A stretch of 64,000 bases of DNA from Deltaproteobacteria bacterium (lineage in GTDB: Bacteria; Desulfobacterota; Desulfuromonadia; Geobacterales; Pseudopelobacteraceae). Position numbers and translations under genes: made by a program. The notes under the pieces are model-generated. The model worked only from the letters and a program-made list of their open reading frames with translations, did no database searches and was not told where the DNA came from. The stretch is from assembly GCA_021850095.1 (NCBI GenBank), contig JAJZRX010000002.1:62001-126000 (forward strand), given 5' to 3'. Numbering within the stretch: the stretch's first letter is position 1; every line of letters begins with the position of its first letter. Below are positions 43,877 to 60,696 of the stretch, one piece after another.

Positions 43877-44564
43877 CGCTCAGGACGCCCTTTTCCAGAT
43901 GACGGATGATATGGGCCTTTTCGGCGGCGCGCGGATCATGGGTGACCATGATGATCGTCTTGCCGAAATCGGCGTTCAGCCGCGTCATCAGCCCCAGGAT
44001 CTCGCCGGCCGAAACCCGGTCCAGGTCGCCGGTCGGCTCGTCGGCCACCAGCAGGGTCGGATCGGTCACAATGGCCCGGGCGATGGCCACCCGCTGCTGC
44101 TGGCCGCCGGAAAGCTGGGAGGGGTAATGCTCGATCCGGTCGCTTAACCCCACCACCTCCAGGGCGGTTTCCACATGCTCGCGCCGCTCACGGCGCGAAA
44201 GCGACGTCAGGAGCAGCGGCAGCTCCACATTCTCGAAAGCGGTCAGCACCGGTATCAGATTGTAGAACTGGAAGATGAAGCCGACCTGGGCCGACCGCCA
44301 GCCGGCCAGGTCGGCTTCGCCCAAGGAGGCGATATCGACGCCGTCGACGATGATCGAGCCGCTGTCAACCGTGTCGATCCCGGCGATCAGGTTCAGCAGC
44401 GTGGATTTGCCGGAACCGGAGGGTCCCATCAAGGCCAGGAACTCGCCCCGGGCGATATCGAACGAGATCCCTTCCAGAACCGGCACGGTCTGGCTGCCGC
44501 GCTGGTAGGACTTGGAAACGGCATTGATGCTGACGATGATCCCCTCGTGCTGAACGGCAGGCAT
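43863..44564 (-). CDS. ABC ATPase, MacB/LolD class
   Basis: A 233-aa ATPase: Walker A GPSGSGKST, Q-loop FIFQFYNLIPVLTAFENV, signature LSGGQQQRVAIARAI, Walker B LLVADEPTGDLD, H-loop MVTHDPRAA. Between the permease and the membrane fusion protein, two bases after the latter's stop. Confidence 0.94.
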   Translation of the reverse strand: MPAVQHEGIIVSINAVSKSYQRGSQTVPVLEGISFDIARGEFLALMGPSGSGKSTLLNLIAGIDTVDSGSIIVDGVDIASLGEADLAGWRSAQVGFIFQFYNLIPVLTAFENVELPLLLTSLSRRERREHVETALEVVGLSDRIEHYPSQLSGGQQQRVAIARAIVTDPTLLVADEPTGDLDRVSAGEILGLMTRLNADFGKTIIMVTHDPRAAEKAHIIRHLEKGVLSDVPA

Positions 44565-44566
44565 GA

Positions 44567-45784
44567 CTATTTTTTCTCCGGCAGCGCAACAACGGCGCCG
44601 TCCTTGAGCTTGTCCAGAGGTTTCAGCGCCAGCTTGTCGCCCGATTTCAGCCCGGAAACCTCCACCAGATCCCCCAATTTTGCTCCGCGAACAACCGGGG
44701 TGAAGACGACCCGTTCCCCCGTGACCAGATAAACCCCTTCGCGCCCGGCAACCGTGACGATGGCAGCTGGATTGACGACAATCCGCGCCTTCTGATCAGC
44801 CGGCCCGGCTTCCCGCTCCAGAAAAGCGACCTTGGCGCTCATTTCCGGGTAGATGCGCTCGTCATGCTCCAGAAAACGGACCTTGACCATGACCGAAGCC
44901 TTGCTGCGGTCGGCGGTCGGCACGATCGTATGGACGACACCCCGGAAACGGCTGCCCGGCAGGGCATCCAGGGTGATTTCACAGGGCTGCCCCTTTTTAA
45001 CCTGATACAGGTTGGATTCGGACACATCCGCCTCCACCTGCAGCGAGTCCAGATCGGCGATCGTCACCACCGCCGCCTTGGCGTTGGCCGCCGCCCCCAA
45101 CGGGGTGATGATATCGCCCACATCGGCGTTTTTGGTCAGTACAACCGCATCAAAAGGCGCCCGGATCAGGCTGTAGTCCAGATTGACCCGGGCCCCCTGC
45201 AGGGCGGCCTGGGCGCTCCTGATCCCCGCCTCGCCACCGGCGGCCTGGGCCGCGCTGCGTTTGAAACGCGCTTCGGCGGCGTCATACTCGGCCTGGGAGA
45301 CGATCCCCTGGCCAAGCAGTTCCTGCTGGCGGCGGAACGACTGACCGGCATCCGCCAGCTCGGCTTTGGACTGCTCCAGCACGGTCTTGGAATTTTGAAG
45401 AGCGGCTTCGGCCTGGCGCAGCACCGCTTCACTATCCCTGTTCTCCAGCCGGGCTATAATCTGGCCACCACTGACCCGGCTCCCCTCCTCGACCCCGATC
45501 CACTCCAGCCGCCCGGTGGTTTTTGACGCGACCGCCGCCTTGCGCTGGGCCACGACATAGCCGCTTGAATTCAGCAGGGTGAAGGACTGGGTGGGGAAGA
45601 ACTGCACGACACTGACGGTTTCAATGGCCACCGGCCGGCCGCGCAGGAAAAACAGCAACGCAAGCGCAATGGCAGCACATACAACGGCGGCAACGGCGCC
45701 GCGCAGCCAGCTGCGCCGTCCGGAGCGGGAAGGTGTCTGACGGGCCTTGTCGATCGAAAGCTTATCCAGAACATCGCTTGGCAT
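44567..45784 (-). CDS. Membrane fusion protein, MacA/HlyD family
   Basis: A 405-aa periplasmic adaptor with one N-terminal transmembrane helix (VAAVVCAAIALALLFFLRG), lipoyl half-motifs (GRLEWIGVEEGSRVSGGQIIARLENRD and SLIRAPFDAVVLTKNADVGDIITP) flanking a helical hairpin rich in Ala/Glu/Gln, and a beta-barrel (ITLDALPGSRFRGVVHTI). It bridges the MacB-like permease to an outer-membrane channel. Confidence 0.92.
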   Translation of the reverse strand: MPSDVLDKLSIDKARQTPSRSGRRSWLRGAVAAVVCAAIALALLFFLRGRPVAIETVSVVQFFPTQSFTLLNSSGYVVAQRKAAVASKTTGRLEWIGVEEGSRVSGGQIIARLENRDSEAVLRQAEAALQNSKTVLEQSKAELADAGQSFRRQQELLGQGIVSQAEYDAAEARFKRSAAQAAGGEAGIRSAQAALQGARVNLDYSLIRAPFDAVVLTKNADVGDIITPLGAAANAKAAVVTIADLDSLQVEADVSESNLYQVKKGQPCEITLDALPGSRFRGVVHTIVPTADRSKASVMVKVRFLEHDERIYPEMSAKVAFLEREAGPADQKARIVVNPAAIVTVAGREGVYLVTGERVVFTPVVRGAKLGDLVEVSGLKSGDKLALKPLDKLKDGAVVALPEKK

Positions 45785-45851
45785 AAAGGAGCCTTTTTGA
45801 CAGGAGGTTAGGATTGTGTGCCATTTTTTGTCATACCATTTTCAGGCTTGA

Positions 45852-47306
<1,455 letters not shown>

Positions 47307-47327
47307 GCCATACATTGCACCAACACA

Positions 47328-47353
47328 CGGGCGGAGGAAACTCCGCCCTTTGT
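47328..47353 (+). terminator. Hairpin between eno and pgi
   Basis: GGGCGGAG, GAAA tetraloop, CTCCGCCC then TTTGTGT: an 8-bp stem with a short T-run. It may be a partial terminator or a processing stem, as pgi begins 26 bases later. Confidence 0.7.
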
Positions 47354-47378
47354 GTATCCGGCAACCAAGGAGCCACCT

Positions 47379-48965
47379 ATGAACCAGCTCGAATTGTGGA
47401 AGCGTTATTCATCGTTGCTGTGCCACTGTCCCGAAATCGGCCTTTCTCTCGATATCAGCCGCATGAAGTTTGACGACGGCTTCCTGGAACGCATGGAACC
47501 GGCCCTGCAACGAGCCTTCAACGAAATGAAGGAACTGGAAGACGGGTCAATCGCCAACCCGGACGAAGGGCGCATGGTCGGACATTACTGGCTGCGAAAC
47601 CCTCCCTTGGCTCCCACCAAAGAGCTGCGCTGCGAGATCGAAGCGGCCATCAACCAGGTGGCGACCTTCAGCCGCCAGATCCAGAGCGGAGCCATCAAAA
47701 CCCAGAACGGCCAGCCCTTCGACAGAATGCTGATCATCGGCATCGGCGGTTCGGCCCTGGGACCGCAGTTCGTGGCCGACGCGCTTTCATCATCCGATGA
47801 CAAGCTGAAAACCCATTTCCTCGACAACACCGATCCGGACGGCATCGACCGGGTTTTTGCCGAGCTGGGGAATGACATCTCCCGCACCTTGGCGATCGTC
47901 ATCTCCAAAAGCGGCTCCACCAAGGAGACCCGCAACGGCATGCTGGAAGCCCAGGCGGCCTATCGCCGGGCCGGGCTGGAGTTTGCCCGGCACGCCGTGG
48001 CGGTGACTGGCCACGACAGCGAGCTGGACAAACTGGCACGATCGGAAGGCTGGCTGGAGCGTTTCCCGATGTGGGACTGGGTCGGGGGGCGCACTTCGGT
48101 GACCTCGACGGTCGGCCTGCTGCCGGCTGCCCTGCAGGGTTTTGACATCAACGCCCTGCTGGCCGGGGCCGGAGAATGCGACCGGATTACCCGCGGCACG
48201 GAAACCAGGCGCAACCCGGCCGCGCTGATGGCGCTGATGTGGCACCACGCCACAGGGGGGCGCGGCCAGAAGGACCTGGTGATGCTGCCCTACAAGGATC
48301 GCCTGCTGCTGCTTTCACGCTACCTGCAGCAGCTGATCATGGAGTCGATCGGCAAGGAGCTTGATCGAAAGGGTGCTGTTGTCAACCAGGGACTGACGGT
48401 TTACGGCAACAAAGGCTCCACCGACCAGCACGCCTATGTGCAGCAGCTGCGCGAAGGGGTGGCCAACTTTTTCCTGACGTTTATCGAAGTCCTCAAGGAT
48501 CGTGAGGGTGATTCAATGCAGGTTGAAGAGGGCATCACCAGCGGCGACTTCCTGTTCGGCTTTTTCCAAGGCACCCGCCAGGCGCTGTATGACAAGGGGC
48601 GCGAATCAATGACCATCACGGTGCAGCAGGTTGACGCTTTCACGGTCGGCGTCCTGATCGCGCTTTTCGAGCGCACGGTCGGACTGTACGCCAGCCTGGT
48701 GGACATCAACGCCTACCACCAGCCGGGGGTCGAAGCCGGCAAAAAAGCGGCCGGAACGGTCATTGCGCTGCAGAAGGAGGTCATGGCATTGCTCGGGAAG
48801 GAGCAAAGGGCAATGAATGCTGAAGAGATCGCCACTTTGATAGGTAAAAGCGAGGAGGTTGAATCGGTATTTTCGATCCTGCGCCACTTGGCTGCCAACC
48901 CTGACCGGGGCATTATCAGCAGTGAGCAGGGAACGGTGCACAACACAACGTTTCAACGCAAATAA
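47379..48965 (+). CDS. pgi: Glucose-6-phosphate isomerase
   Basis: A 528-aa enzyme. Start at ATG 47379 (AAGGAG seven bases before). Seen: [25 protein letters not shown] (sugar-phosphate binding), the PGI signature [11 protein letters not shown], and [16 protein letters not shown] with the catalytic region. Linked with eno, reflecting gluconeogenesis and glycolysis in one unit. Confidence 0.96.
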
Positions 48966-48984
48966 CATCTTGTAATGCATAGTT

Positions 48985-49028
48985 TACAACACTACCCGCC
49001 AGGAAAATCACTTGGCGGGCAGTGTTGT
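48985..49028. terminator. Two-way hairpin after pgi
   Basis: ACAACACTACCCGCCA, 11-base loop, TGGCGGGCAGTGTTGT: a 15-pair stem with one mismatch, between convergent pgi and the Cas4-like gene. Lacks a clear T-run on either side but is well placed. Confidence 0.5.
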
Positions 49029-49060
49029 TATGATGCATGGCTTTAGGTGGCAGTCTTTGT

Positions 49061-49765
49061 CTACAAAGTCAAAAACGGAGTTCGCGGCACATCAGCCCAG
49101 CAATATCCCGTAAAGTCACAATCATACGGTTTTTTGCACTGCCGACCGATGCCAATTTTCGGCATATCTCCCTTGAGCATGGTTCTCTGAAGATCTATTT
49201 CTGAGCGAATCGCCTCCTGCCGCCGAAGCACCTCTGCGGTGACATCAATCCAGACGAAAATATTCTCCGGCTCAACATCCCCATTCCGGACATAGCGGGC
49301 AGTGAGCAGAACCAGAGATGCCTTCTCGACACGAATGCCGGAGTTGGTTACAACATAATACTGCACCGCTATGTCATGTATGTAATTTTCTTTAGCGATT
49401 GTCGATGCCTTGACCTCACCCAGATGCCAGCCTGCAGGAGATTTTGTCAGAAGGTCGGCTTTTATGAATACATTATCGTAGGAAAACGCGGCTTCAAAGA
49501 TCGTGTCCGTCCCGGAATCAATCAGGCGGCGGGTCATTTCAATCTGCTCTGCCAACGGCACGTCATCAAACGGCACTTCGATCCCGTCAGGAAACATCTG
49601 TTGCGCCAACCTGCCAACCTTATGTCCGAAATCAAATACCGCTTGTTTGTCATCGCCGACTTCATCCTTCAGTTCCGGGCGATGAGTCTGAAGCCACAAC
49701 GCCTTATGGCACTGCATTCCTTTGATAAAGCGTGATTTACTGAGAAAGGGGATGTATTCGTTCAT
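49061..49765 (-). CDS. Cas4/RecB-like Fe-S nuclease, short form
   Basis: A 234-aa protein. Seen: KSRFIKGMQCHKALWL with Cys19, IKADLL with Asp104, HLGEVKAST with Glu117-Val-Lys119 (the D...ExK active site), IHDIAVQYYV, and cysteines 210, 216 and 222 in CKKPYDCDFTGYC, which with Cys19 should hold a 4Fe-4S cluster as in Cas4 and AddB. Many such proteins carry a C-terminal DUF2779 domain; this one stops short of it. No CRISPR array or cas genes are nearby. Last gene of the island; own predicted promoter with a shared 16-bp site at 49826-49841. Confidence 0.8.
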   Translation of the reverse strand: MNEYIPFLSKSRFIKGMQCHKALWLQTHRPELKDEVGDDKQAVFDFGHKVGRLAQQMFPDGIEVPFDDVPLAEQIEMTRRLIDSGTDTIFEAAFSYDNVFIKADLLTKSPAGWHLGEVKASTIAKENYIHDIAVQYYVVTNSGIRVEKASLVLLTARYVRNGDVEPENIFVWIDVTAEVLRRQEAIRSEIDLQRTMLKGDMPKIGIGRQCKKPYDCDFTGYCWADVPRTPFLTL

Positions 49766-49825
49766 AATGATTCTGCTCTCCTGTGTTCTGAACTTTGTGT
49801 GATGGTGCCAACGTATCAGAAGCGA

Positions 49826-49841
49826 GAGTCATTTCTGGACA
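49826..49841 (-). promoter_or_regulatory. Shared 16-bp site C, upstream of the Cas4-like gene
   Basis: Minus strand TGTCCAGAAATGACTC, matching 11-12 of 16 bases of sites A and B (TGTCCAC-NN-CTGTCAC). GATACG follows at the same distance as the -10-like boxes at A and B. It lies 61 bases upstream of the 49765 start codon. Confidence 0.6.
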
Positions 49842-49856
49842 CAGGAGAGGTAAATG

Positions 49857-50684
49857 CTATTGCATCTTTTTCAAGGCGATGAGCTCCTCATCGATTGTTT
49901 CCGGAGAGCGAGCGCCGGCGAAATACGACCTATCGCCGTCATTCCGTGGCGCCCATGCCGATACATAGCGGGCAAAAATATCAGCGAATGGTGACTTCAG
50001 GCTGTTCAGGCAATTCACCACATCCGCAAAGGTTATCTGCCTGATGGCCGATAGATCGTAGTTCCTGACCTTTGCCATTTCCTCATTGGTAAAACCTGCT
50101 GGCTGCAGCATGATGATTTCGCACGAAGAAATGTCTTTGATCACCTCTATTTTGTCAATCAGCTCGCCGACGCCCTGTTTTTTTACGGAATATAATTTCT
50201 CTTTGATGCCGGAAGACATTGAAATAAAACCAAGCTGTTCCAGCAAACTGAACAGGTGAAAATATTTCTGCTTATCGCCGGTTGCCTTGAATACCTGGCG
50301 AAGATCAGTCAAAATATTTTTGAATCCGCCACCTGCTTCCTCAATATGCTTTTTGGCTTTGAAGAGGTATTCGAATTGCTCATCCCGCAACGAACCCATA
50401 TCAGTTTTGAATTCGATCAGATAAACCGTAGACAGCGATTTTGAGAACATCACATAGTCAACATTGACGGTGTGGTTTTCATTACCATGACGGAGCGGAA
50501 ACTCGGGAATAATGGCCGGTGACAGTTCAACACGATTGTCGTCGGTGCTCAGTTTTGCCTCCATAATCTCTTTCAGATACAGTGAAAAGAAGATGTCAGC
50601 CCGGCGCTCCAACTGATATTTGGGCAGGTTCCTCCACAGGGTAAGGTTCTGGAATATTTTTTCAACTGCCTGTTGTTCATTCAT
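49857..50684 (-). CDS. PD-(D/E)XK-like nuclease-fold protein, unknown
   Basis: A 275-aa protein with a strong GGGGGAG ribosome site. VNVDYVMFSKSLSTVYLIEFKTDMG contains Asp76, Glu91 and Lys93 in the spacing of a PD-(D/E)XK active site, and an upstream Glu lies in LYLKEIMEAKL. The C-terminal half is helical with no known motif. I do not recognise the family. It sits between the 98-aa unknown and the Cas4-like gene, same strand. A restriction-like nuclease is the best guess. Confidence 0.65.
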   Translation of the reverse strand: MNEQQAVEKIFQNLTLWRNLPKYQLERRADIFFSLYLKEIMEAKLSTDDNRVELSPAIIPEFPLRHGNENHTVNVDYVMFSKSLSTVYLIEFKTDMGSLRDEQFEYLFKAKKHIEEAGGGFKNILTDLRQVFKATGDKQKYFHLFSLLEQLGFISMSSGIKEKLYSVKKQGVGELIDKIEVIKDISSCEIIMLQPAGFTNEEMAKVRNYDLSAIRQITFADVVNCLNSLKSPFADIFARYVSAWAPRNDGDRSYFAGARSPETIDEELIALKKMQ

Positions 50685-50751
50685 AAAACTCCCCCATACA
50701 TAGTCGTTAGTTTTAATTCCGTTTCTTCAATAGCATACAGAAGATACTGGG

Positions 50752-51048
50752 TCAGTTGTAGTGAACATCATATTCAATTTCATACACCTGATCCCTCAAA
50801 CCGAACAGATAAACTATCTCGGCGATCATCCCCTGTGAAATACGAGGTGAAATGTAAACCCTGTAGACGCCGCGCAACGTAAAATAAACCACCCTGCCAC
50901 GTGGCCAGTGTTCGTAAGGCAGCCTTTTCAGTAACCATTCAGATCTGGTTGAAGGGACAAGCTTCTCATGCCATTCAAAATGACCGCCATGCTGAAGTGC
51001 ATCTCCGTAAGGCTCGGCTTCTTCTGTCGTAACCATATCACAGCCCAT
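50752..51048 (-). CDS. Hypothetical protein, 98 aa
   Basis: Aromatic-rich small protein (WLLKRLPYEHWPRGRVVYFTLRG, VYRVYISPRISQG, QVYEIEYDVHYN). No ribosome site is clear before the ATG at 51048 or the one at 51036, but the composition is coding-like and it lies 63 bases downstream of the AAA gene and 67 bases before the nuclease-like gene, in one leftward unit. Family not recognised; an HTH or adaptor role cannot be argued from sequence. Confidence 0.6.
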   Translation of the reverse strand: MGCDMVTTEEAEPYGDALQHGGHFEWHEKLVPSTRSEWLLKRLPYEHWPRGRVVYFTLRGVYRVYISPRISQGMIAEIVYLFGLRDQVYEIEYDVHYN

Positions 51049-51111
51049 TCTTTACTACCCAGTAAATACCGACTTTTGGTATATCCGGATCGATTTGTCT
51101 TTCAACATATC

Positions 51112-53355
51112 TCATGCTGAAACCGACCTTCCCCCAAACAGCACTCCTGCTTTTTTACTGCCCCTATACCCGGAAATGACCTCCGTCACATCGATAATGC
51201 CGGTATGATCCCGCCCGGAAATTATGGCGCGGACTTTGGCCTGCCGGGAAATGAAGCCGATCTCCGACAGGTGCATCGGATAACGTTCTACCAAATCAAC
51301 CAGATCATCATCACTGATCGACCCGCAGCCGATATTTTTCTCCCAATGACGCATCTGCAGCTCTTCCGGCGGGTGGGCCAGAGTGATCATCTGGTGGAAC
51401 TCCACCGGCACCAGTCCGGACTTGACGTCTCTGGTAACAAGGCAGAACAGCCCTTTGTTGTTGCGCAGTTGATGGAACATCTCGCCGTACATCAGATTGG
51501 TGGCCTTGTCATAGCCGGAATCGATCAGCCGTGCCACATCGCCGTTGTAATCAATGAACAGAGTCATGTTTCGACAGGCAGAACTATTGAGGAATGCCGC
51601 CACCATCGGGTAGATGCGACGCTGAGAGACCATATCCAGCACCTTGTCATCCTCCGCCATAGATGAAACCCTGGCGATGTCGAAGGCCTGCACATCCATG
51701 CCGATCTCAACGGCAAGGCCGCATGCCGCCTTGATGCCGGTGGTGATATCGCTGCAGTTGAAAAGCAGATTGAAACCGGTCTCTTCCCGGCGCAGCCACT
51801 GCCAGCCCCTGGCAAGCCCCTGCAACTGGTCACGCTGCTGACGGCTTACGGGAACGACTTCCAGCGACGGCAGCGGCGGGAGTTTTTCACATAAGCGGCT
51901 CATGTCGTTCATAGTCGCGGTCTGGAGTGTCGCGGCGTGCTCCAGGGCCTCCAGTGTCAATGATATGGTGCCGTCACTGGCCGATGGAATCGAGGTCACA
52001 GCCATCAGGATGCTGTTTTTGATCAGTCCCCCGGAAAACGGGAAGCGTTCCGCCAGTGCCTGCAAGTCCACATCAGGTGCAAACATTACTTCAGGCGGCA
52101 GCAGGGCGCGCCACATCTGCTCCCGCAGTTGAGTCTCCGGCAGTTCAAATTTGACCTTCATGGCCAGACGGCGCTCCATGGCCGGGTCAAGCTCCAGCGG
52201 TTTATTGGTGGCCATGATGGTGATGCAGCGGGATTTCTCGATTTCAAGCAGCAGGGAGCGGCTCAGCCGGGTTTCACTGCGGCCGAAGATATCGTCACAC
52301 TCGTCAAGGAAGACGATTCCTCCCAGCAGAGCCGCCTCGCGGAACAACATGGCGAGGATGTCGTCATCAGAAACAGGGATCTTCGGCATATCCTCCAGGT
52401 TGAGCGATACCAGCGGGCAGCCGAGATGATTGGCCAGCCCCTTGGCCAGCATGGTCTTGCCGGTTCCGGAAGGGCCATGGAAGAGGAAGGTCAGGCCGGT
52501 ACCATAGCCGAAAAAATCATCCAAACGCTCAAGACAGCCGTTTTTACGGCCGGCCAGATAGTGCTCGGCGCTGCTGATCACATCCTGCTTGACGCTGTCC
52601 GGGAGTACCACCTGTGACAGGTTGACGGAGGAATGCTCCTGTCGTATGAAACGGAAGGCGACATGGTACTGATTCTCATCCCCCAGGATATGCCGTACGT
52701 AGCGCTCATGCAGATAGACCGACATCCGCAGGATGCTGGCGGTGCTGTCAACGCAGTTATGGTTCGCGTACAGTATGTCGCGGTTGAGAAGAGTGCCGCG
52801 GATATTGAAATAGTGCCGGTATTCAAGCTGCTGCCCGAGATTCTCGGAGATTATCGAGAGCAGCGGGCCGATCTCCATGCCATTGTCGCTGCCACGCTCC
52901 AATCTGCTGGCTTGATAGGTTAAGCAGAAACCGGGCGATGAGAACTGCATCAGAAGCAGCATCACGATCTGCCGCTCCACCCTGTCCAGCTCCCATTTGT
53001 CGCAAAAGTCGATAAAATTGAGCCGTATCCCCTGTTGCCGGGAGAGTTCCTCCCGTTGCCGGTTTTCTCCCGCAGTGGTCTGTAGCAAACCCTGAACCTG
53101 CTGTAGGCTTGTCCCGCTTGCCAGAAAGGAAAAACGTACTTCCCGCTCCGGACCATCATCGTTGTCGGCACCAGGGCCGGTACGATACGCGGCTGCCGCG
53201 ACCATCAGCTTTGCTTCATACTCCAGCGCCTCCAGATGGTTATTACTGCTGGCAAACGGCACAATCTCAACCGTGCTGTCGCGATGAGAGTTCAGGGCAA
53301 TAATCTGGGCCGCATTGGTCGTCATATGGCCGGTCTGCATAATAGTTGCTTGCAT
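51112..53355 (-). CDS. AAA ATPase with one active and one degenerate AAA domain
   Basis: A 747-aa protein. N-domain to about 265; first AAA domain: Walker A GPSGTGKT (294-301), Walker B IVFLDECDD (347-355), sensor MATNKP, arginine finger PAMERR, sensor-2 FPFSGGLIK. A second AAA-like domain (505-715) mirrors it part by part, but the P-loop is replaced by NCSDITTG and Walker B by LFIDYNGD, so it should not bind ATP. ATG 53355 with GGGGG seven bases upstream, 11 bases after the ClpP-like gene. It may be a remodelling or unfolding partner of the ClpP-like protease, but it is not ClpX, ClpA or Lon (inference). Confidence 0.85.
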   Translation of the reverse strand: MQATIMQTGHMTTNAAQIIALNSHRDSTVEIVPFASSNNHLEALEYEAKLMVAAAAYRTGPGADNDDGPEREVRFSFLASGTSLQQVQGLLQTTAGENRQREELSRQQGIRLNFIDFCDKWELDRVERQIVMLLLMQFSSPGFCLTYQASRLERGSDNGMEIGPLLSIISENLGQQLEYRHYFNIRGTLLNRDILYANHNCVDSTASILRMSVYLHERYVRHILGDENQYHVAFRFIRQEHSSVNLSQVVLPDSVKQDVISSAEHYLAGRKNGCLERLDDFFGYGTGLTFLFHGPSGTGKTMLAKGLANHLGCPLVSLNLEDMPKIPVSDDDILAMLFREAALLGGIVFLDECDDIFGRSETRLSRSLLLEIEKSRCITIMATNKPLELDPAMERRLAMKVKFELPETQLREQMWRALLPPEVMFAPDVDLQALAERFPFSGGLIKNSILMAVTSIPSASDGTISLTLEALEHAATLQTATMNDMSRLCEKLPPLPSLEVVPVSRQQRDQLQGLARGWQWLRREETGFNLLFNCSDITTGIKAACGLAVEIGMDVQAFDIARVSSMAEDDKVLDMVSQRRIYPMVAAFLNSSACRNMTLFIDYNGDVARLIDSGYDKATNLMYGEMFHQLRNNKGLFCLVTRDVKSGLVPVEFHQMITLAHPPEELQMRHWEKNIGCGSISDDDLVDLVERYPMHLSEIGFISRQAKVRAIISGRDHTGIIDVTEVISGYRGSKKAGVLFGGRSVSA

Positions 53356-53366
53356 AGATTTCCCCC

Positions 53367-53936
53367 TTATCCACGTTTCCGAACAGGTTCCACAACATCA
53401 GCCAGCCCGAACTGGATGGCCTCATCCGGCGTCAACCAGGTATCCACATCGCGCAGCAGGTATTTTTCCAGTTCGTCCTTATGCTTGATGTTGGAATACG
53501 ACAGATAGTGCTGGAGGATGCGCTCGTGCTCCAGATCTTCTTCCTTGCGACTGGCGATCAGCTGGCTGTGATTGCCGAAGTTGAAAGCGGAGAAGCGATG
53601 GGAGAGGATTGAAGTGCGGGGGGTGATGACCCGGCGACCTTTCTCGCCGGTCATGAAGATCAGGAGCCCCATGCTGGCGATCATGCCGATGCCGGTGGTG
53701 TAGATCGGGATACGCGACCACTCCATGATGTCGATGATGGAGAAGCCGGCCGGGCAGGAACCGCCCGGCGAATTGATGATCATCTGGATCTGGTTGACCT
53801 CACCCTTGATGTTGAGGTCGATGATCTCCTTGCAGACGCCTTCAGCGGTGCCGCCGCTGATCGCCCCGGAGATGTAGATGATGCCGTAGTCTTTGAGTCC
53901 GTTGTCTTTCTGCTGCTTGTCGGTGTCTGCTGCCAT
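53367..53936 (-). CDS. ClpP-like serine protease
   Basis: A 189-aa protein with the ClpP/crotonase fold: IIYISGAISGGTAEGV, INSPGGSCPAGFSIIDIM, catalytic Ser88 in GMIASMGLL, His113 in ILSHRF and Asp163 in LLRDVDTWLTPDEA; the triad is complete. C-terminus is short. It is divergent from housekeeping ClpP and has no clpX next to it. AAGGAGG ribosome site; shared 16-bp site B lies 48 bases upstream. Paired with the AAA protein, expected to degrade proteins in an ATP-dependent way (inference). Confidence 0.88.
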   Translation of the reverse strand: MAADTDKQQKDNGLKDYGIIYISGAISGGTAEGVCKEIIDLNIKGEVNQIQMIINSPGGSCPAGFSIIDIMEWSRIPIYTTGIGMIASMGLLIFMTGEKGRRVITPRTSILSHRFSAFNFGNHSQLIASRKEEDLEHERILQHYLSYSNIKHKDELEKYLLRDVDTWLTPDEAIQFGLADVVEPVRKRG

Positions 53937-53983
53937 GGTGGCGCCTCCTTGAAAATGTGTTGATCAAGGAGTACACCCGGGGT

Positions 53984-53999
53984 GTGACAGAAGTGGACA
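53984..53999 (-). promoter_or_regulatory. Shared 16-bp site B, upstream of the ClpP-like gene
   Basis: Minus strand TGTCCACTTCTGTCAC, identical to site A at 14 of 16 bases. TGTACT follows 18 bases later. The two half-words TGTCCAC and TGTCAC are direct repeats about one helical turn apart. Confidence 0.75.
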
Positions 54000-54013
54000 A
54001 TCAAAAATCGCAG

Positions 54014-54340
54014 CTACATCATTGGCAACCAGGCGAGCAGCTTTCGAATGCCCTTGATCCGGTTCATGCCCTTTGCCACATTTTGTTCGGAACGATCCTG
54101 CGACTTGGGTTGGTAGGCTTTCAGTGCTCTGATGGCGCGGGGGGTGAAGGTGTGGTTGAAATGCAGGGCACCCAGGGCCGTGAGGCGCACCGCTGATGAT
54201 TCGTCGTTAAGTGCCTGGAGAGCGATGTCCAACGCCTTGGATGAACCAACTTTCTGCAGAGAGGAGACCGCCTGTGCCCTGACAGCACTTTCGCTGTCGG
54301 AAAACTCTTCGATGAGCAATTTCTCGATATGTTCAGCCAT
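54014..54340 (-). CDS. Small HEAT-repeat protein
   Basis: A 108-aa helical protein: EEFSDSESAVRAQAVSSLQKVGSS and ALNDESSAVRLTALGALHFNH are HEAT/phycobilin-lyase-like repeats, followed by a basic tail (KGMNRIKGIRKLLAW). Start at ATG 54340; an in-frame TTG at 54355 is also possible. Follows the 37-aa ORF by 23 bases; may be a scaffold or adaptor of the AAA/ClpP pair. Confidence 0.75.
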   Translation of the reverse strand: MAEHIEKLLIEEFSDSESAVRAQAVSSLQKVGSSKALDIALQALNDESSAVRLTALGALHFNHTFTPRAIRALKAYQPKSQDRSEQNVAKGMNRIKGIRKLLAWLPMM

Positions 54341-54363
54341 AATTCGATGTTTCAAAGCCGCTT

Positions 54364-54477
54364 TTAACCGTTCACCGATACCGCGCCATGAACTACGAAT
54401 ATTGCCATCCCCTCAAACCATGGCCCGATTGTTTTGATAAATCGCCTAAAATCTGTGTCTGTCTGTATGTGTTCCAT
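54364..54477 (-). CDS. 37-aa ORF with a strong ribosome site
   Basis: MEHIQTDTDFRRFIKTIGPW then FEGMAIFVVHGAVSVNG, stop. A GGGGGAG ribosome site lies five bases before the ATG, the same as at other genes of this island, so it is likely translated. First gene downstream of site A. No known family; it could be a leader peptide or small subunit. Confidence 0.55.
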   Translation of the reverse strand: MEHIQTDTDFRRFIKTIGPWFEGMAIFVVHGAVSVNG

Positions 54478-54496
54478 TGTCTCCCCCTTTCCGTAA

Positions 54497-54525
54497 TTGC
54501 TCATCCTTTGATTGCAGGCTATAGT
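54497..54525 (+). promoter_or_regulatory. Sigma-70-type promoter of the WYL gene
   Basis: TTGCTC, 17-base spacer, TATAGT. Its start point would fall just before or in site A (54532-54547). The CTATAG core also serves as the -10 of the leftward promoter on the other strand. Confidence 0.6.
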
Positions 54526-54531
54526 CTGGCA

Positions 54532-54547
54532 GTGACAGTTGTGGACA
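54532..54547. promoter_or_regulatory. Shared 16-bp site A, between the WYL gene and the leftward unit
   Basis: GTGACAGTTGTGGACA on the plus strand. On the minus strand TGTCCACAACTGTCAC is followed 18 bases later by TATAGC and then the 37-aa ORF. On the plus strand it overlaps the expected WYL transcript start, so it could be an operator for both directions. Confidence 0.75.
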
Positions 54548-54577
54548 CAAGAAGCGATCAGAAATGAGGTAGCTGAC

Positions 54578-55603
54578 ATGGATAAGAAAGAACGGAACAT
54601 CTGGGGACCGAAGATGGTGCAGCTGGTGACGGCGGTCAGACTTCTTGCCCGCCCGAACGGAGCCACAGCCCAGGAGCTTGCCATTGAGCTGGAACTGTCA
54701 AAGCGCACGGTGTATCGGATACTGGAGACCCTTGAGGTTTTGATCGGGGGGCCGTTGGATAAGGTTCAGGGCGTTTTGCAGAAAGAGGTGCGTAATAAAT
54801 TCCCCCAAGGGTTTACGCTTAACCTGCCGCTGACCGAACTGTCCGGGCTGACCGTACCGGAACTGATGGCACTGTTTGCTCTACGCATGAATGCCGGATT
54901 ATTCAGGGGCAGCGTCATCAGTGCCGACATTGACTCGGCGTTCGAAAAGATCAGCAACGCCTTGTCACCAGAGGCAAAGTCCGTGCTGGAGCGCTACTCC
55001 ACCCTGTTCATCTCCGTTCCGAAAACTCCGAAGGACTACTCCGGACACGACGAAACGATTGAAGAGCTTTCCATGGCAATACTGGGGCGGAAAACCTGCC
55101 GCATTACCTACACCACCTTTGCTGAAGAGGAGATTAGAGAGAAAACCTATGACATCAACCCGCTGCATTTCTTTGAACGTGATGGAGGGCTGTATGTGTT
55201 CGTGGTGGTGCCGTACTTCGGCGACATCAGACTTCTGGCGGTTGAGAGGATCAAATCCATCGAAATGAGTGAAAAGGAGTTCTCCTGGCCGACAAACTTT
55301 GCCCCGGAAGCCCTCCTGCACAAGGCATTCGGTCTGTACTGGGATGATCCCTTAACCGTAAAAATAAAATTCCCGGCCTCCCAGGCCCGCTATATCAGAG
55401 AGAGAAAATGGGCTGAACAGCAGAGTATTGATGAATTGCCGGATGGCAGTATCGTTTTGACGATGGAAACATCGGGCGGCTATGAGATCAAACGGTGGGT
55501 ACTGTCATTCGGCTCTGATGCGGAACTGCTGGAGCCCCCCAGATTACGGGCCGAAATAACAAGGGAAATCGAGGCTTTCTCAAAAATATATTTCGAGCAC
55601 TGA
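54578..55603 (+). CDS. WYL-domain transcriptional regulator
   Basis: A 341-aa protein. N-terminal winged HTH (ATAQELAIELELSKRTVYRIL), a middle helical segment, a WYL domain (CRITYTTF to INPLHFFERDGGLYVFV and RLLAVERIKSIEM) and a WCX C-terminal domain (VKIKFPASQARYIRERKWAEQQ). WYL regulators sense nucleotides or nucleic acid and often control phage-defence operons (BrxR, CapW). Start at ATG 54578, GAGGT seven bases before. Divergent from the island; likely autoregulated through site A. Confidence 0.9.
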   Translation: MDKKERNIWGPKMVQLVTAVRLLARPNGATAQELAIELELSKRTVYRILETLEVLIGGPLDKVQGVLQKEVRNKFPQGFTLNLPLTELSGLTVPELMALFALRMNAGLFRGSVISADIDSAFEKISNALSPEAKSVLERYSTLFISVPKTPKDYSGHDETIEELSMAILGRKTCRITYTTFAEEEIREKTYDINPLHFFERDGGLYVFVVVPYFGDIRLLAVERIKSIEMSEKEFSWPTNFAPEALLHKAFGLYWDDPLTVKIKFPASQARYIRERKWAEQQSIDELPDGSIVLTMETSGGYEIKRWVLSFGSDAELLEPPRLRAEITREIEAFSKIYFEH

Positions 55604-55623
55604 AAGCACTGATCAACCGAACG

Positions 55624-58152
55624 TCAGGTCCCTCTCGACTTTGCCCGCCGGGTCGGAGTGGCGCTCCAGGGATCGTCCGGCCAGGGATGTTTGGGATAGC
55701 GCCCCTTCAATTCTTTTTTAACCTGCTGATAGGCTCCGTCCCAGAAACCCTTCAGGTCGCGGGTGACCTGGATCGGCCGGCCGGCCGGCGAGAGCAGATG
55801 CAGCAGAACCGTGACCCGCCCATCCGCGATGGCGGGAGTGTCTTTCAGCCCGAACAGTTCCTGCAGTTTGACCGCCAGCACCGGCGCCTCCCCACTGTAA
55901 TCCAGCCTGATGCGCGATCCGCTCGGCACGGTCAGATGGGTGGGCGCCAGCCCATCCAGTTCGCGCTGCTGGCGATAATCCAGGCGCTGCCGCAGCAGAT
56001 TCGCCAGATCCAGTTGTGCCAACCTGCGGACACTCCGCACCCCGCCCAGATGCGGCGCCAGCCACTCCTCCAGATCATCCAGCAGCGCAGCGTCGGAGAA
56101 ATCCGGCCACTCTCGCTCCGGCAGGGCAGATCGGACCAGCGCCAGCCGCCCCTGCAGTTCACGCACGGCATCACCCATGGTCAACAGCCCCAATCCGGAA
56201 GCCCGCACCGCCGCGACCACGGCCGGAACCAGTTCCTGGTCCGAGGGAACAAAGGTTTCCACACTGAGCTGCAGCGCCCCCAGCTTTTCCATTCTACGGG
56301 CCAGCGCCCGTCCATCCCGCTCGCTCCAGCTGACGGACGTTTCCTTGAAAATATGCCCGCCCCGCTCCTCCCGGATGATCTCCTCGGAAACTTCGGCCGC
56401 CAGATGGATCAGTGCCTCGGCCTGGCTGCCGCCATCCAGCACGACGGCGACCAGATACTCGGCTCCCCGCACCGCGCAACGCGAAGAAAGGGCGGCTCCA
56501 CGGCCGTTGGCCAGCAGATACCCTTCGGCGTTGGCACTGCGCCGCCGGGCAACCCGATCCGGATAGGCCGCCAGCAGCAGCCGGGAAATCAGGTCGTCAT
56601 CAAGCGCCGCCGGCTGACCAACCGCCGAACAGCCCGCAAGCCGGGCCAGCTGGCCGACCACCCGATCGACATTTTTCAGTGCGGCCTGGTCCAGCCGGTC
56701 ATCCCCCCTGCCCCGCTTTCTCCAGTCCCAGAGCGCTTCCAGGCGGTCGGAAACATCCGAATAACTGGCCAGGGCGGTATGCTGCGACCCTGATGACCTG
56801 AAAAAATCACGCTCGGAAAGCAGCGCCGCCAGATCGCAGCCCAACGCAAGGCAACCCAGTTCACGGGCGCGCAGCAGCAGGCGTCCCAGGCGTGGGTGCA
56901 GCGGCAGCCGCATCATCTCCTGCCCCCGGGGCGTAATCCGTCCGGCGCTGTTGAGAGCGTCCAGCTCAACCAGCAGGGCGCGGGCCGCCGCCAGGGCGGC
57001 CACCGGGGGCGCATCCAGCCATTGCAGGGTCAGCGGATCCATGGTTCCCCAGGCGGCCAGTTCCAGCAGCAGCGGCGACAGATCGGTTTCGCGTATCTCG
57101 GGCGGCGTATGGGGGATCATGGCAGCCAGAGTATGACGGCTGTAGAGCCGGTAGCAGACACCGGGAGCCACCCTTCCGGCCCGCCCCTGACGCTGTTCGG
57201 CCGAGGCCCGGGATTCGCGCAGCGTCACCAGCCGGTTCATGCCGGTTGACGGATCAAACTGCAGCCGGCGGGACACCCCGCAGTCAATCACGACCCTGAC
57301 CCCTTCAATCGTCAGACTGGTCTCGGCAATGCTGGTGGCCAAAACGATTTTACGTTGAGGCCCGGGCTGGATCGCCTTCTGCTGCTGATCGAACGGCAGA
57401 TCGCCGTACAGCTGGCAGACGGCAACTCCCCGGGCAGCGATGCCGGACTCGGCCAAGCGGGCAGCGCAGGCGCGGATCTCGCCGGAACCGGGCAGAAAGG
57501 CCAGTATATCGCCTTCGCTTTCGTTCAGGGCCCGCAACACGGCCATCGCCATGCGCTGCGGCAATCTGACAGCGGCCTGCTCATCCAGAAAAATCTCCTC
57601 CACCGGATAGGAGCGCCCTGCGGAGCTGATCACTGGCGCATGGTCCAGCAGGGCCGCCAGCGGCTCGATTTCAAGCGTGGCCGACATGACCAGAATGTTG
57701 AGATCGTTTCTGACCTGCCGCTGAAGGTCCAGGCAGAGCGCCAAGCCAAGATCGGCATGGATGCTGCGCTCATGGAACTCGTCAAAGACCACCAGCACCA
57801 CCCCTTCCAGCAGCGGATCGTTCTGAATCCGCCGGGTCAGGATCCCCTCGGTCACGACCTCGATGCGGGTGGCGGCTGACGTGCGACTGTCGAAGCGGAT
57901 CGAATAACCGACCGTTTGTCCGACCTCTTCACCCAGAGAGCGCGCCATCCAACGGGCAGCCGACACGGCCGCAATCCGGCGCGGCTCAAGCATGATGATC
58001 CGTCCGGCATCCGGGGGGATCAGCTCCAGCAGCTCCAGGGGCACCCGGGTGGTTTTGCCGGCGCCGGGCGGCGCGTGCAGAAGGACGTTGGCATGGCTGC
58101 GGAGTGCGGAAAGGAGCTGTGACAGGATGTCGTCAATCGGCAGCGGAATCAT
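55624..58152 (-). CDS. hrpB: ATP-dependent helicase HrpB
   Basis: An 842-aa DExH RNA helicase read from ATG 58152 (MIPLPIDDILSQLL). Seen: Walker A APPGAGKTTRVP, DEFHER for DExH, SATLE, QGRAGRVAPGVCYRLYS, and the HrpB C-terminal domain (HPLLSPAGRPIQVTRDLKGFW region). Longer in-frame sequence upstream passes through a palindromic repeat and is not coding. Substrate in cells not known. Convergent with the WYL gene, 20 bases apart. Confidence 0.93.
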   Translation of the reverse strand: MIPLPIDDILSQLLSALRSHANVLLHAPPGAGKTTRVPLELLELIPPDAGRIIMLEPRRIAAVSAARWMARSLGEEVGQTVGYSIRFDSRTSAATRIEVVTEGILTRRIQNDPLLEGVVLVVFDEFHERSIHADLGLALCLDLQRQVRNDLNILVMSATLEIEPLAALLDHAPVISSAGRSYPVEEIFLDEQAAVRLPQRMAMAVLRALNESEGDILAFLPGSGEIRACAARLAESGIAARGVAVCQLYGDLPFDQQQKAIQPGPQRKIVLATSIAETSLTIEGVRVVIDCGVSRRLQFDPSTGMNRLVTLRESRASAEQRQGRAGRVAPGVCYRLYSRHTLAAMIPHTPPEIRETDLSPLLLELAAWGTMDPLTLQWLDAPPVAALAAARALLVELDALNSAGRITPRGQEMMRLPLHPRLGRLLLRARELGCLALGCDLAALLSERDFFRSSGSQHTALASYSDVSDRLEALWDWRKRGRGDDRLDQAALKNVDRVVGQLARLAGCSAVGQPAALDDDLISRLLLAAYPDRVARRRSANAEGYLLANGRGAALSSRCAVRGAEYLVAVVLDGGSQAEALIHLAAEVSEEIIREERGGHIFKETSVSWSERDGRALARRMEKLGALQLSVETFVPSDQELVPAVVAAVRASGLGLLTMGDAVRELQGRLALVRSALPEREWPDFSDAALLDDLEEWLAPHLGGVRSVRRLAQLDLANLLRQRLDYRQQRELDGLAPTHLTVPSGSRIRLDYSGEAPVLAVKLQELFGLKDTPAIADGRVTVLLHLLSPAGRPIQVTRDLKGFWDGAYQQVKKELKGRYPKHPWPDDPWSATPTRRAKSRGT

Positions 58153-58235
58153 CGGATAGTCATAAACCCTTGCAGTGGAGATGTGTGAATAGTTACGGCT
58201 GAAATGCCTGAAAACACATAAACCTTGAAAAAACA

Positions 58236-58392
58236 TTTGAAACACAGAGCAACCGAGCAACGGAGTAAAATAAATCTTCTCGGAAGTCCTTTTTTGAGAC
58301 TCGCTTTTTTGTGAATGCTGTTTCTGATGTAAGGTCTTGATTTCTCTGTTGCTCAATTGCTCTGTGTTATTCAAACTGCCGTTTGCAGGATA
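58236..58392. repeat. Palindromic intergenic repeat, family 1, copy e
   Basis: Left arm AACACAGAGCAACCGAGCAA, right arm TTGCTCAATTGCTCTGTGTT, ending CAAACTGCCGTTTG. Nearly the same as copy d. It takes up a third of the 463-base gap 58153-58615; the rest (58393-58615) is presumed promoter of the metal locus and holds no gene. Confidence 0.85.
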
Positions 58393-58615
58393 AGCCGACT
58401 TGAACCCTTTAGACAACCTTATTTATCCCCGACAGCGTCTCTGCCTTGCAGAAGAATATTCAACGCAGCTGAAGAATATTCCACAACGCCATCCTCTTCC
58501 ACTACCTACAGACGAGACCATCCACAATAGTTACAGCCCGTTACGGTGTTTTTCCAGCATGGCACGTTCCTTGATAGAAGCCAGCCATACAAACACACCG
58601 TGGAGGAAACCACAC

Positions 58616-59041
58616 ATGAAAAACAAATCCTTGAATATCGGCATTATCGTTTCCGTTGTTACCCTTCTGTCCGTGATGGCTTTTTTCGTCAGAACCGGCG
58701 CAACCGCCGACTCGGTGGCGGTTCTGAAGACCAGCGGCATGACCTGCGGCAGCTGTTCCAGCAAGATCAGCGCGGCCCTGGAGGCCTTGAAGGGGGTTGC
58801 GGTGACCGAGGTGGACGTGAACGGCGGCTGGGTGGTCGTCGGTTATGACACCAAGGATGTCAAGCCGGAGGCACTGGCCGAGAAGGTCAGCGGCGCCGGC
58901 TATGGTAGCAGCGTGCATATGGTGCTGACGCCGGAGCAGTTCAAAGAAATCACCGGCCGCCAGATCGGCGCCAAAGTGGCACAGAAATCGGGATGCTGCG
59001 GCAACAAGGGCGGCGGCTGCGGATCCAGAACTAACAGCTGA
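58616..59041 (+). CDS. Membrane-anchored HMA-domain protein
   Basis: A 141-aa protein with an N-terminal transmembrane or signal helix (IGIIVSVVTLLSVMAFFV), then an HMA domain with metal motif GMTCGSCSSKI (CX2C), and C-terminal Cys-rich GCCGNKGGGCG. Similar to MerP/CopZ heavy-metal carriers but exported. Start with GGAGG nine bases upstream. First gene of a metal-related operon; Cu, Hg or Fe binding possible. Confidence 0.88.
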   Translation: MKNKSLNIGIIVSVVTLLSVMAFFVRTGATADSVAVLKTSGMTCGSCSSKISAALEALKGVAVTEVDVNGGWVVVGYDTKDVKPEALAEKVSGAGYGSSVHMVLTPEQFKEITGRQIGAKVAQKSGCCGNKGGGCGSRTNS

Positions 59042-59071
59042 TACAGCGAACAATAACCAAAGGAGATCAAC

Positions 59072-59536
59072 ATGGCATCAGGTCGCACAAAACAGATCGT
59101 AGTGGCAGGTATTGTTATGGCAGCGCTGCTGGTTGGCGCAGTCGCCGGGTTTGCCTTCTCGCTGGGCAAGTATGAAAAGGTCAAAGCGAACGGCGGAGTC
59201 GTATCGCTGCCGGTTTCCAAGCTGTCCGATGGCAAGGCCCGCTTCTATAAATTCCAGGACGGCGGCAAGGAGATCGCCTTCTTCGCCATCAAAGCCGCCG
59301 ACGGCAGCGTCAAAACCGCTTTTGACGCCTGCGATGCCTGTTATCGCGACAAGAAGGGCTACGAACAGCAGGGCGATAAGATGAACTGCAAAAACTGCAA
59401 CCAGAAATTCGCGGTCAACCGTCTGGGCCCCAACGCCACCGGCGGCTGCAACCCCGGCTACCTGCCGCACCAGTTGAGCGGCAGCACGGTCACTATCTCA
59501 ATTAATGACCTCAAGGGCGGAGCGAGATACTTCTGA
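59072..59536 (+). CDS. DUF2318 Fe-S/metal-binding protein
   Basis: A 154-aa protein with one N-terminal transmembrane helix (VVAGIVMAALLVGAVAGFAF) and a DUF2318 domain: DACDACYRDKKGYEQQGD and NCKNCNQKFAVNRLG give two CX2C pairs, then GGCNPGYLP. In other bacteria DUF2318 proteins are encoded with Ftr1/P19 iron uptake and FtsX permeases. AAGGAG ribosome site. Its stop shares a base with the permease start. Confidence 0.88.
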   Translation: MASGRTKQIVVAGIVMAALLVGAVAGFAFSLGKYEKVKANGGVVSLPVSKLSDGKARFYKFQDGGKEIAFFAIKAADGSVKTAFDACDACYRDKKGYEQQGDKMNCKNCNQKFAVNRLGPNATGGCNPGYLPHQLSGSTVTISINDLKGGARYF

Positions 59537-60696
59537 TGAAACTACACACGATCTCAATCAACAACCTGAAACGCCGCAAGGCCAAGATGGCTTTCCTGAC
59601 GATCGGCCTGATGGTGGGGATTGCAACCATCGTCACCCTGGTCACCCTGACCCGCTCCATGTCCAGCGACATCGAACGCAAGATGGACGAGTTCGGCGCC
59701 AACATCCTGATCACGCCCCAGAGCAACGGCCTGGCCATGAACTACGGCGGCATCAGCCTGGGGGGGGTGACCTTCGATCAGCGCGAGATTCTGGAAGAGG
59801 ATCTGGCCAGGATCAAGACCATCACCAACCACAAGAACATCTCGGCCGTTGCGCCAAAGGTGCTGGGCGGCATAAAGATCGGCAGCCACGATGTGCTGCT
59901 GGTGGGGGTCAACTTTGAAAGCGAGTTGAAGATGAAGCAGTGGTGGCAGATCTTCGGCCATGAGCCCAAAGCGGAAAATGACCTGTTACTCGGCTCGGAT
60001 GCCTCCAGAGTGCTGAACGTTTCTTCCGGCGACAGCCTGACCATCAAGGGCGAAACCTTCACCGTGGCCGGCGTACTGGATCAGACCGGCTCCCAGGATG
60101 ATGCGCTGGTTTTCGCCTCCCTGCCCAAGGCCCAGAAACTGCTCGGCAAAGAGGGTAAGATCACCTTGGCCGAGGTGGCGGCGCTCTGCTCCGGCTGCCC
60201 GATCGGCGACATGGTGACCCAGATCGCCGAAAAGCTGCCGGATGCCAAGGTGTCGGCCATCCAGCAGGTCGTGGAGGGGCGCCTTAAAGCCCTGGATCAG
60301 TTCAAGCGTTTCTCCTACGCCATGGCCGGGGTGGTGGTTTTCATCGGCTCGCTGATCGTCTTTGTCACCATGATGGGCAGCGTCAACGAGCGCACAACTG
60401 AAATCGGGGTCTTTCGGGCCATCGGCTTCCGCAAGAGCCACATCATGCGGATCATCCTGCTGGAAGCGGCCCTGGTCAGCCTGCTGGCCGGCTTCCTGGG
60501 CTATGCCGTCGGCATGGGGGGCGCCAAACTGGCCCTGCCCTTCATGGCCGAAAGCAAAAATGCCGTTCTGGCCTGGGACACAAGCATCGCCTTCGGTTCC
60601 ATCGCTCTGGCCCTGACGCTGGGACTGCTGGCCAGTCTCTACCCGGCCCTGCACGCCAGCAAGATGGACCCGACCGAGGCCTTGCGGGCACTGTAG
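59536..60696 (+). CDS. FtsX-type ABC permease of the DUF2318 locus
   Basis: A 386-aa protein: N-terminal helix, periplasmic domain, three C-terminal helices (VVVFIGSLIVFVTMMGSVNERTTEIGVFRAIGF, the FtsX motif). An internal CSGCP motif around 217-221 may bind metal or a thiol partner. Ends in a repeat that supplies its TAG stop. With the ATPase it probably transports or energises a periplasmic step in metal handling. Confidence 0.9.
   Translation: MKLHTISINNLKRRKAKMAFLTIGLMVGIATIVTLVTLTRSMSSDIERKMDEFGANILITPQSNGLAMNYGGISLGGVTFDQREILEEDLARIKTITNHKNISAVAPKVLGGIKIGSHDVLLVGVNFESELKMKQWWQIFGHEPKAENDLLLGSDASRVLNVSSGDSLTIKGETFTVAGVLDQTGSQDDALVFASLPKAQKLLGKEGKITLAEVAALCSGCPIGDMVTQIAEKLPDAKVSAIQQVVEGRLKALDQFKRFSYAMAGVVVFIGSLIVFVTMMGSVNERTTEIGVFRAIGFRKSHIMRIILLEAALVSLLAGFLGYAVGMGGAKLALPFMAESKNAVLAWDTSIAFGSIALALTLGLLASLYPALHASKMDPTEALRAL

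Follow-up and report, generated by a model that had tools for sequence, protein, structure and literature searches.

AAA partners of peptidases are reported to dock by loops or by C-terminal tails; ClpC binds ClpP via an AGF tripeptide, mutation of which abolishes binding (PMC12521514), and PAN relies on HbYX at its C-terminus (PMC5476697). Among WYL regulators, CapW is described as a repressor of CBASS that is released on infection, while others such as PafBC are described as acting in DNA damage (PMC9122588). The subject of this analysis is a 6.6-kb module of a Deltaproteobacteria bacterium in which genes for a ClpP protease and an AAA protein, here termed AAA-1, lie with a divergent WYL regulator gene and genes for nuclease-like proteins. 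It is found in a stretch of 64,000 nucleotides (contig JAJZRX010000002.1 of assembly GCA_021850095.1, positions 62,001 to 126,000; the whole stretch is called the window below), which is part of a 3.4-Mb genome in 118 contigs. Our tentative reading, given a probability of roughly 0.45, is that of a WYL-switched ATP-dependent protease module, composed of ClpP and a CDC48-type motor and used in conflict with mobile DNA.

By family the module is a ClpP protease, and it departs from the known Clp systems by its partner and its proposed docking. Like ClpXP, ClpAP and ClpCP it has a Ser-His-Asp ClpP with an ATPase partner and, as proposed here, a short hydrophobic contact motif. Unlike them, it has a CDC48-like partner whose second ATPase domain (D2) is dead, the E. 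coli docking positions are replaced, the motif is LFG at the C-terminus and not an internal IGF-type loop, and the genes are mobile and WYL-linked. With PAN or Cdc48 and the 20S proteasome it has in common a classical AAA motor and the proposed docking by a C-terminal tail, whereas its peptidase is ClpP and its tail is LFG instead of HbYX. CapW and BrxR (of CBASS and BREX) resemble its regulator in being helix-turn-helix (HTH)-WYL-WCX proteins beside an operon with candidate upstream sites; however, the module genes encode a protease and nucleases, and the principal site is a direct repeat of TGWC type, a palindromic site being present in three loci of a second WYL class (class 2) only. The module AAA is also distantly like that of IetAS (IetA 4.3e-17; IteA 2e-15), which likewise has a serine protease partner, IetS being a subtilisin where the module has ClpP. 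Membership of IetAS was rejected, as the IetA match reached 56.8 bits against a cut-off of 510 and the protease partner is ClpP.

No library searched named the module. With the protein models of PADLOC-DB 2.0.0 no named defence system was found: ClpP, the PD-(D/E)XK-like protein and the small protein U98 gave no match at E-values up to 1, and the remaining proteins matched generic WYL, Cas4 and IetA-type models only. There was also no description of a ClpP-AAA-WYL module in the open-licence papers searched. A first-pass annotation, made from the letters alone, had reported that it could match the gene set to no named defence system, and this was borne out in the libraries searched.

A pattern scan with ClpP over one genome per species gave 26 loci and profile searches five more, making with the window 32 records (labelled L069 and the like) from 28 genomes; the records are therefore not independent genomes, and all were collected through ClpP. 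AAA-1 is directly downstream of ClpP in 30 of the 32, the other two (L091, L093) having ClpP fragments only. ClpP and AAA-1 are thus a near-constant gene pair, and the idea that the homologues never co-occur, which the first-pass annotation had named as fatal to its proposal, fails. The other such idea, a housekeeping role for this pair, fails too, because the genome has a separate ClpP elsewhere with ClpX beside it (69% and 67% identical, respectively, to those of E. coli in a single comparison). Searches for the module ClpP gave 13 carriers among 277 genomes of the class, 5 (counting the own genome) among 395 sampled from the phylum, and 9 among 155 and 2 among 46 in two other classes; by their record titles the carriers are Geobacter-like, Syntrophaceae/Smithella and other Deltaproteobacteria, along with one Dependentiae record. 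Geomobilimonas luticola and Geobacter sp. OR-1 are carriers in culture. In eight pairs compared, ClpP was 71–97% identical and AAA-1 37–73%, with the N domain of AAA-1 11–27 points below the first ATPase domain (D1) in all eight and D2 less identical than the N domain in three. A single genome (L050, L069, L092, L093) contains one intact pair together with two broken copies of ClpP and a C-terminal fragment of AAA-1, a sign of rapid module turnover.

The ClpP of the window matches PF00574 at 1.8e-31 and is an S14 peptidase by its triad S88/H113/D165, which is invariant in 21 aligned rows and aligns with S97/H122/D171 of E. coli; the complete-triad ClpP-like protease of the first-pass annotation stands. 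Altered residues are found at the E. coli ClpP positions which we take to receive the IGF loop. In all five family members compared (E. coli numbering) F49 is replaced by Asp, Glu or Arg, Y60 by Gln, Y62 by Ile or Val, F82 by Trp, I90 by Thr, F112 by Val, L114 by Thr and L189 by Glu or Gln. The N-terminal stretch is also shorter. From these residues we infer that the module ClpP may be insulated from ClpX. Its best PHROG match is to a head maturation protease (3.4e-24). Among the phage matches listed, the best were a 43% identical ClpP of a 469-kb Sinorhizobium phage (PV764938.1, 115020-115697) and a 40% identical ClpP of a 156-kb Synechococcus phage (ON615601.1, 75487-76053). Neither has an AAA-family gene annotated within 5 kb, though many of the neighbors are hypothetical; the latter has a PhoH-type gene nearby. 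A pattern scan of IMG/VR gave no close relative, and the plasmid and phage collections contained none above 60% identity.

AAA-1 has matches to a winged-helix domain (PF22977, 1.2e-21) and to AAA (3.8e-19). It matches the CDC48 model at 1.6e-12 and 46.6 bits, short of the NCBIfam cut-off of 802.65, and the ClpX model at 0.0014 and 17.6 bits against a cut-off of 359, which places it outside Clp/Hsp100. Its predicted structure (mean predicted local distance difference test [pLDDT] 74.7, predicted template modeling score 0.42) matches the two-domain proteins Rix7 and p97, with two tandem AAA domains as in the CDC48/p97 type, D2 lacking Walker A. In D1, Walker A is kept in 17 of 18 aligned rows, together with Walker B, the sensor and the arginines, while GxxxxGK[S/T] is absent from D2 in all 18, in agreement with the dead second domain that had been read from the window alone. 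Accordingly the sequences describe AAA-1 as a CDC48-like motor of two ATPase domains, of which one is intact and the other dead. All 26 complete C-termini, three of them from partial genes or contig ends, have LFG within the last 11 residues; of the 35 records counted, two more are cut by contig ends and seven are without that part. The LFG stretch has pLDDT under 50, as in a disordered tail, and five other AAA proteins of the order that the same search gave (L053, L019-L022), with no ClpP in the stretch read, have no LFG-type ending. Since ClpC relies on a tripeptide (PMC12521514) and PAN on HbYX (PMC5476697), the LFG tail may be the dock for ClpP.

The divergent WYL regulator described in the first-pass annotation is present and, by its WCX and WYL matches (Table 1) and HTH models at 3.8e-5, just under their cut-offs, is predicted to be a WYL-WCX repressor; the ATG at 54578 is its more likely start. 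The 503,753 bases of module records contain 20 copies of the motif TGWCCA-N4-TGWCA[C/T], against none in 486,353 bases of background, a count that is partly circular because the pattern was derived from the same loci. Eleven copies are upstream of ClpP, six upstream of WYL, two before downstream genes of L079 and one elsewhere. The stronger point is the near-constant position relative to clpP, about 46–50 bp in other loci and close to that in the window, which is consistent with an operator. The genome of the window has three matches, of which two lie at the module. In L084, L087 and L088, which have a WYL of class 2, a palindrome CGTTCC-N7-GGAACG precedes ClpP instead. L069 has the motif with no WYL nearby, and on the same contig there is a WYL gene with its own motif some 70 kb away. 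Two integrase-family genes lie near the WYL gene of L077.

The site of the module is empty in most relatives read. A pgi match was found in 34 of 39 genomes of the genus; besides the own genome, 29 had a locus, which was read, and four had none. In 26 of these 29 pgi and hrpB are adjacent, and in the remaining three (L128, L140, L145) there is no hrpB within the flank read. The G+C content is 0.44–0.57 over the module (49-56 kb), compared with 0.57–0.63 in the left flank and 0.64–0.67 in hrpB; 58-60 kb, outside the module, is also low (0.53–0.57). The module is, judged by site and composition, horizontally acquired. No insertion-end repeats were recognized at its ends, and Rfam (44000-60000) and tRNA scans gave no matches.

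The module would work as follows. WYL would keep the operon repressed; a signal of infection or damage would lift the repression, whereupon AAA-1 and ClpP would be produced. AAA-1 hexamers would dock on ClpP via their LFG tails, in the manner of the HbYX of proteasome motors and unlike the internal IGF loop of ClpX, and the fast-evolving N domain would select the proteins fed to ClpP. The protease could then destroy proteins of a phage or element, or else one of the host's own, in which case the outcome would be abortive, and the nucleases may act on DNA beside it.

Table 1. Coordinates of the module and its features in the window.
Feature	Position	Strand	Evidence or remark
Inserted module	48966..55623	none	Flanks: pgi ends at 48965, hrpB ends at 55624
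Cas4-like PD-(D/E)XK protein with Cys cluster, truncated copy of a Cas4-like/DUF2779/RNase H protein	49061..49765	-	Cas_Cas4 4e-5
PD-(D/E)XK-like protein, 275 residues	49857..50684	-	D76, E91, K93 invariant, 4 rows
U98, conserved small protein, shortened here	50752..51048	-	
AAA-1: winged-helix N domain, intact D1, dead D2	51112..53355	-	LFG tail at residues 739-741
ClpP, full triad, altered unfoldase-docking positions	53367..53936	-	
Candidate WYL operator	53984..53999	-	47 bp upstream of clpP
HEAT-repeat protein, 108 residues	54014..54340	-	HEAT_2 5e-11 (scored on longer TTG-start reading)
37-residue ORF, possible remnant	54364..54477	-	
Second candidate operator	54532..54547	none	Between 37-residue ORF and WYL, 30 bp before WYL ATG
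WYL-WCX regulator, N-terminal HTH, divergent	54578..55603	+	WCX 6.5e-21, WYL 1.2e-8

All genes listed in the first-pass annotation are present in their places (Table 1): from the WYL gene leftward there follow the 37-residue open reading frame (ORF), HEAT, ClpP, AAA-1, U98, the PD-(D/E)XK-like protein and the Cas4-like protein. Among those that had to be qualified are the Cas4-like ORF, which is about half a gene, and U98, which is shortened. The former, called a Cas4-like Fe-S nuclease at first, does have the Cas4 core (PF01930 at 24.2 bits, the cut-off being 22.7) and a Cys cluster whose residues are common to its relatives. However, at 234 residues it is cut at the pgi-side end of the module and lacks the C-terminal half; complete relatives have about 490 residues and continue into a DUF2779 and RNase H-type region, in which they differ from Cas4. 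No cas or other CRISPR gene was identified among the module's genes, CRISPR arrays in the genome not having been searched for. The 275-residue protein has no Pfam match, and its model gave no significant match in PDB (best E 0.011, a restriction endonuclease subunit, in a list mixing nucleases and unrelated folds); it does keep the pattern D76...E91-x-K93 in four of four rows. An imperfect inverted repeat with 17-nt arms (49776-49849) lies between the genes of these two proteins. The 98-residue U98, first listed as unknown, belongs to a conserved family without a Pfam match; in the window it falls short of its relatives at both termini, and a Cys pair is among what is missing. No relative of the HEAT protein was found in the other loci with which it was compared. 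The 37-residue ORF may be a remnant, because 29 of its residues match an 81-residue ORF in L093 at 65%.

The content of the module differs among loci, and ClpP-AAA-1 is the constant part. The partners, predicted nucleases among them, vary: DUF2779/Cas4-like proteins are found in 10 of the 32 records, an ERCC4 nuclease in seven, U98 in six (one distant), PD-(D/E)XK-like and HD proteins in four each and REase-ARP in three. A DnaA-type ATPase gene replaces HEAT between WYL and ClpP in L079 (9173-9931) and L080 (7716-8462), and in L069 (13231-14807) genes for an RtcB-type ligase and a release-factor-like protein directly follow the pair. Beside known defence genes, where the first-pass annotation had suggested looking for the same gene order, are some copies: McrBC adjoins that of L070, type I restriction-modification genes and an RtcR-like regulator lie beside that of L088, and PDC-M27, a PADLOC candidate system, lies beside that of L119; others are without such neighbors. 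There are also a TPR-repeat NTPase (L074) and a WD40 protein (L076).

The order also has a second family with two AAA domains, AAA-2 (L047:3838-6072, minus strand; L050:3278-5440 and L119:7297-9525, plus strand; L165-L182), present in 16 of 138 genomes. Of 18 C-termini three are cut by contig ends, and the 15 complete ones all have IG[F/Y] close to the end; a diverged copy in L119 has FGF in its place. A WYL gene is near in 9 of 15 AAA-2 loci and a ClpP in one of 15. Proteins of FtsZ_C type (L047:6805-7752, minus strand), with ankyrin repeats (L185:5013-6665, minus strand) and of FtsA type (L079:14587-15822, plus strand) are found near AAA-2 or AAA-1. It is conceivable, if doubtful, that two parallel docking codes exist, AAA-1 with LFG driving the dedicated insulated ClpP and AAA-2 capturing the housekeeping ClpP via a C-terminal ClpX-type tripeptide, both belonging to proteases that are induced in conflicts and have a CDC48-type motor where others have ClpX.

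Several points weigh against a WYL-switched conflict protease. Docking by LFG is argued by analogy, L089 lacks the D1 Walker A stretch (an alignment gap), the docking positions L48 and M92 remain hydrophobic in the module ClpP, and the housekeeping ClpP departs at Y60 too (His). As the records were gathered via ClpP, the pairing was observed starting from ClpP only, and decay is evident in some copies (a frameshifted AAA in L072, the first of the Geobacter sp. OR-1 copies; fragments in L074 and L092). The WYL gene is seen in 18 of the 32 records; the operator pattern comes from the module loci themselves and has matches in 33 of 39 genus genomes, so it is not specific genome-wide, and L119, with a class 2 WYL, is without the palindrome. 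Metabolic genes flank L082, L111 and one side of L088. Nor does a pooled comparison with PADLOC establish an enrichment in defence genes: 123 neighbor genes of at least 100 residues from 11 loci (ClpP, AAA and WYL removed) matched 195 families and 123 control genes, sampled from 169 on 13 stretches that belong to those contigs or to that of the window, matched 132, the number of matching genes not being in the output and generic candidates leading both lists. Of the defence interpretation in the first-pass annotation, the real module with its WYL, full-triad ClpP, dead-D2 AAA and nuclease-like neighbors, outside any named system of the libraries searched, is retained; phage defence itself is not established, with only some loci adjoining known defence genes, WYL in little more than half of the records and the window's Cas4-like nuclease truncated.

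It is probable that ClpP and AAA-1 form a dedicated machine. Classical AAA motors often act without ClpP, and ClpP might join housekeeping Clp parts while AAA-1 is a separate remodeler; their near-constant adjacency, the altered docking positions of ClpP and the invariant LFG tail make this improbable. Given the machine, its use in conflict with mobile DNA is somewhat likely, and it may serve in phage defence. An accessory stress or quality-control protease with no defence role, whose WYL senses damage or a metabolite and whose nucleases repair DNA, would suit the RtcB and release-factor-like genes of L069, the RtcR-like regulator of L088, the metabolic flanks at several loci and the part ascribed to PafBC-type WYL proteins in DNA damage (PMC9122588). 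The spread is patchy in class and phylum, the insertion site is empty in most relatives read, copies decay and restriction genes lie by some of them, so that such a role is rather unlikely. A function of the carrying mobile element, either transfer control or defence against competitors in the cell, is unlikely: the AAA-1 gene which in Geobacter sp. OR-1 spans the two ends of a 166-kb contig (G008:C52; L046, L047, L073), as in a circular replicon, and the integrase-family genes of L077 speak for it, but there is no integrase or transfer gene among the genes of the window insertion, and neither the plasmid nor the phage collections gave a relative more than 60% identical. That the module is what remains of a prophage head-maturation protease, as the PHROG match and the phage ClpPs at 40–43% identity might suggest, is hardly credible, since the pairing with AAA is conserved in the records, no capsid or packaging family is found among the module genes and the pattern scan of IMG/VR gave no close relative.

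If the module is indeed a WYL-switched conflict protease, a CDC48-type motor would drive a ClpP via a C-terminal tail, in the way known for docking on proteasomes, and mobile DNA would be carrying an ATP-dependent module for proteolysis next to a regulator of the defence type. This makes testable the notion that targeted proteolysis, beyond nucleic-acid cleavage, may be a mobile weapon against phages or plasmids.

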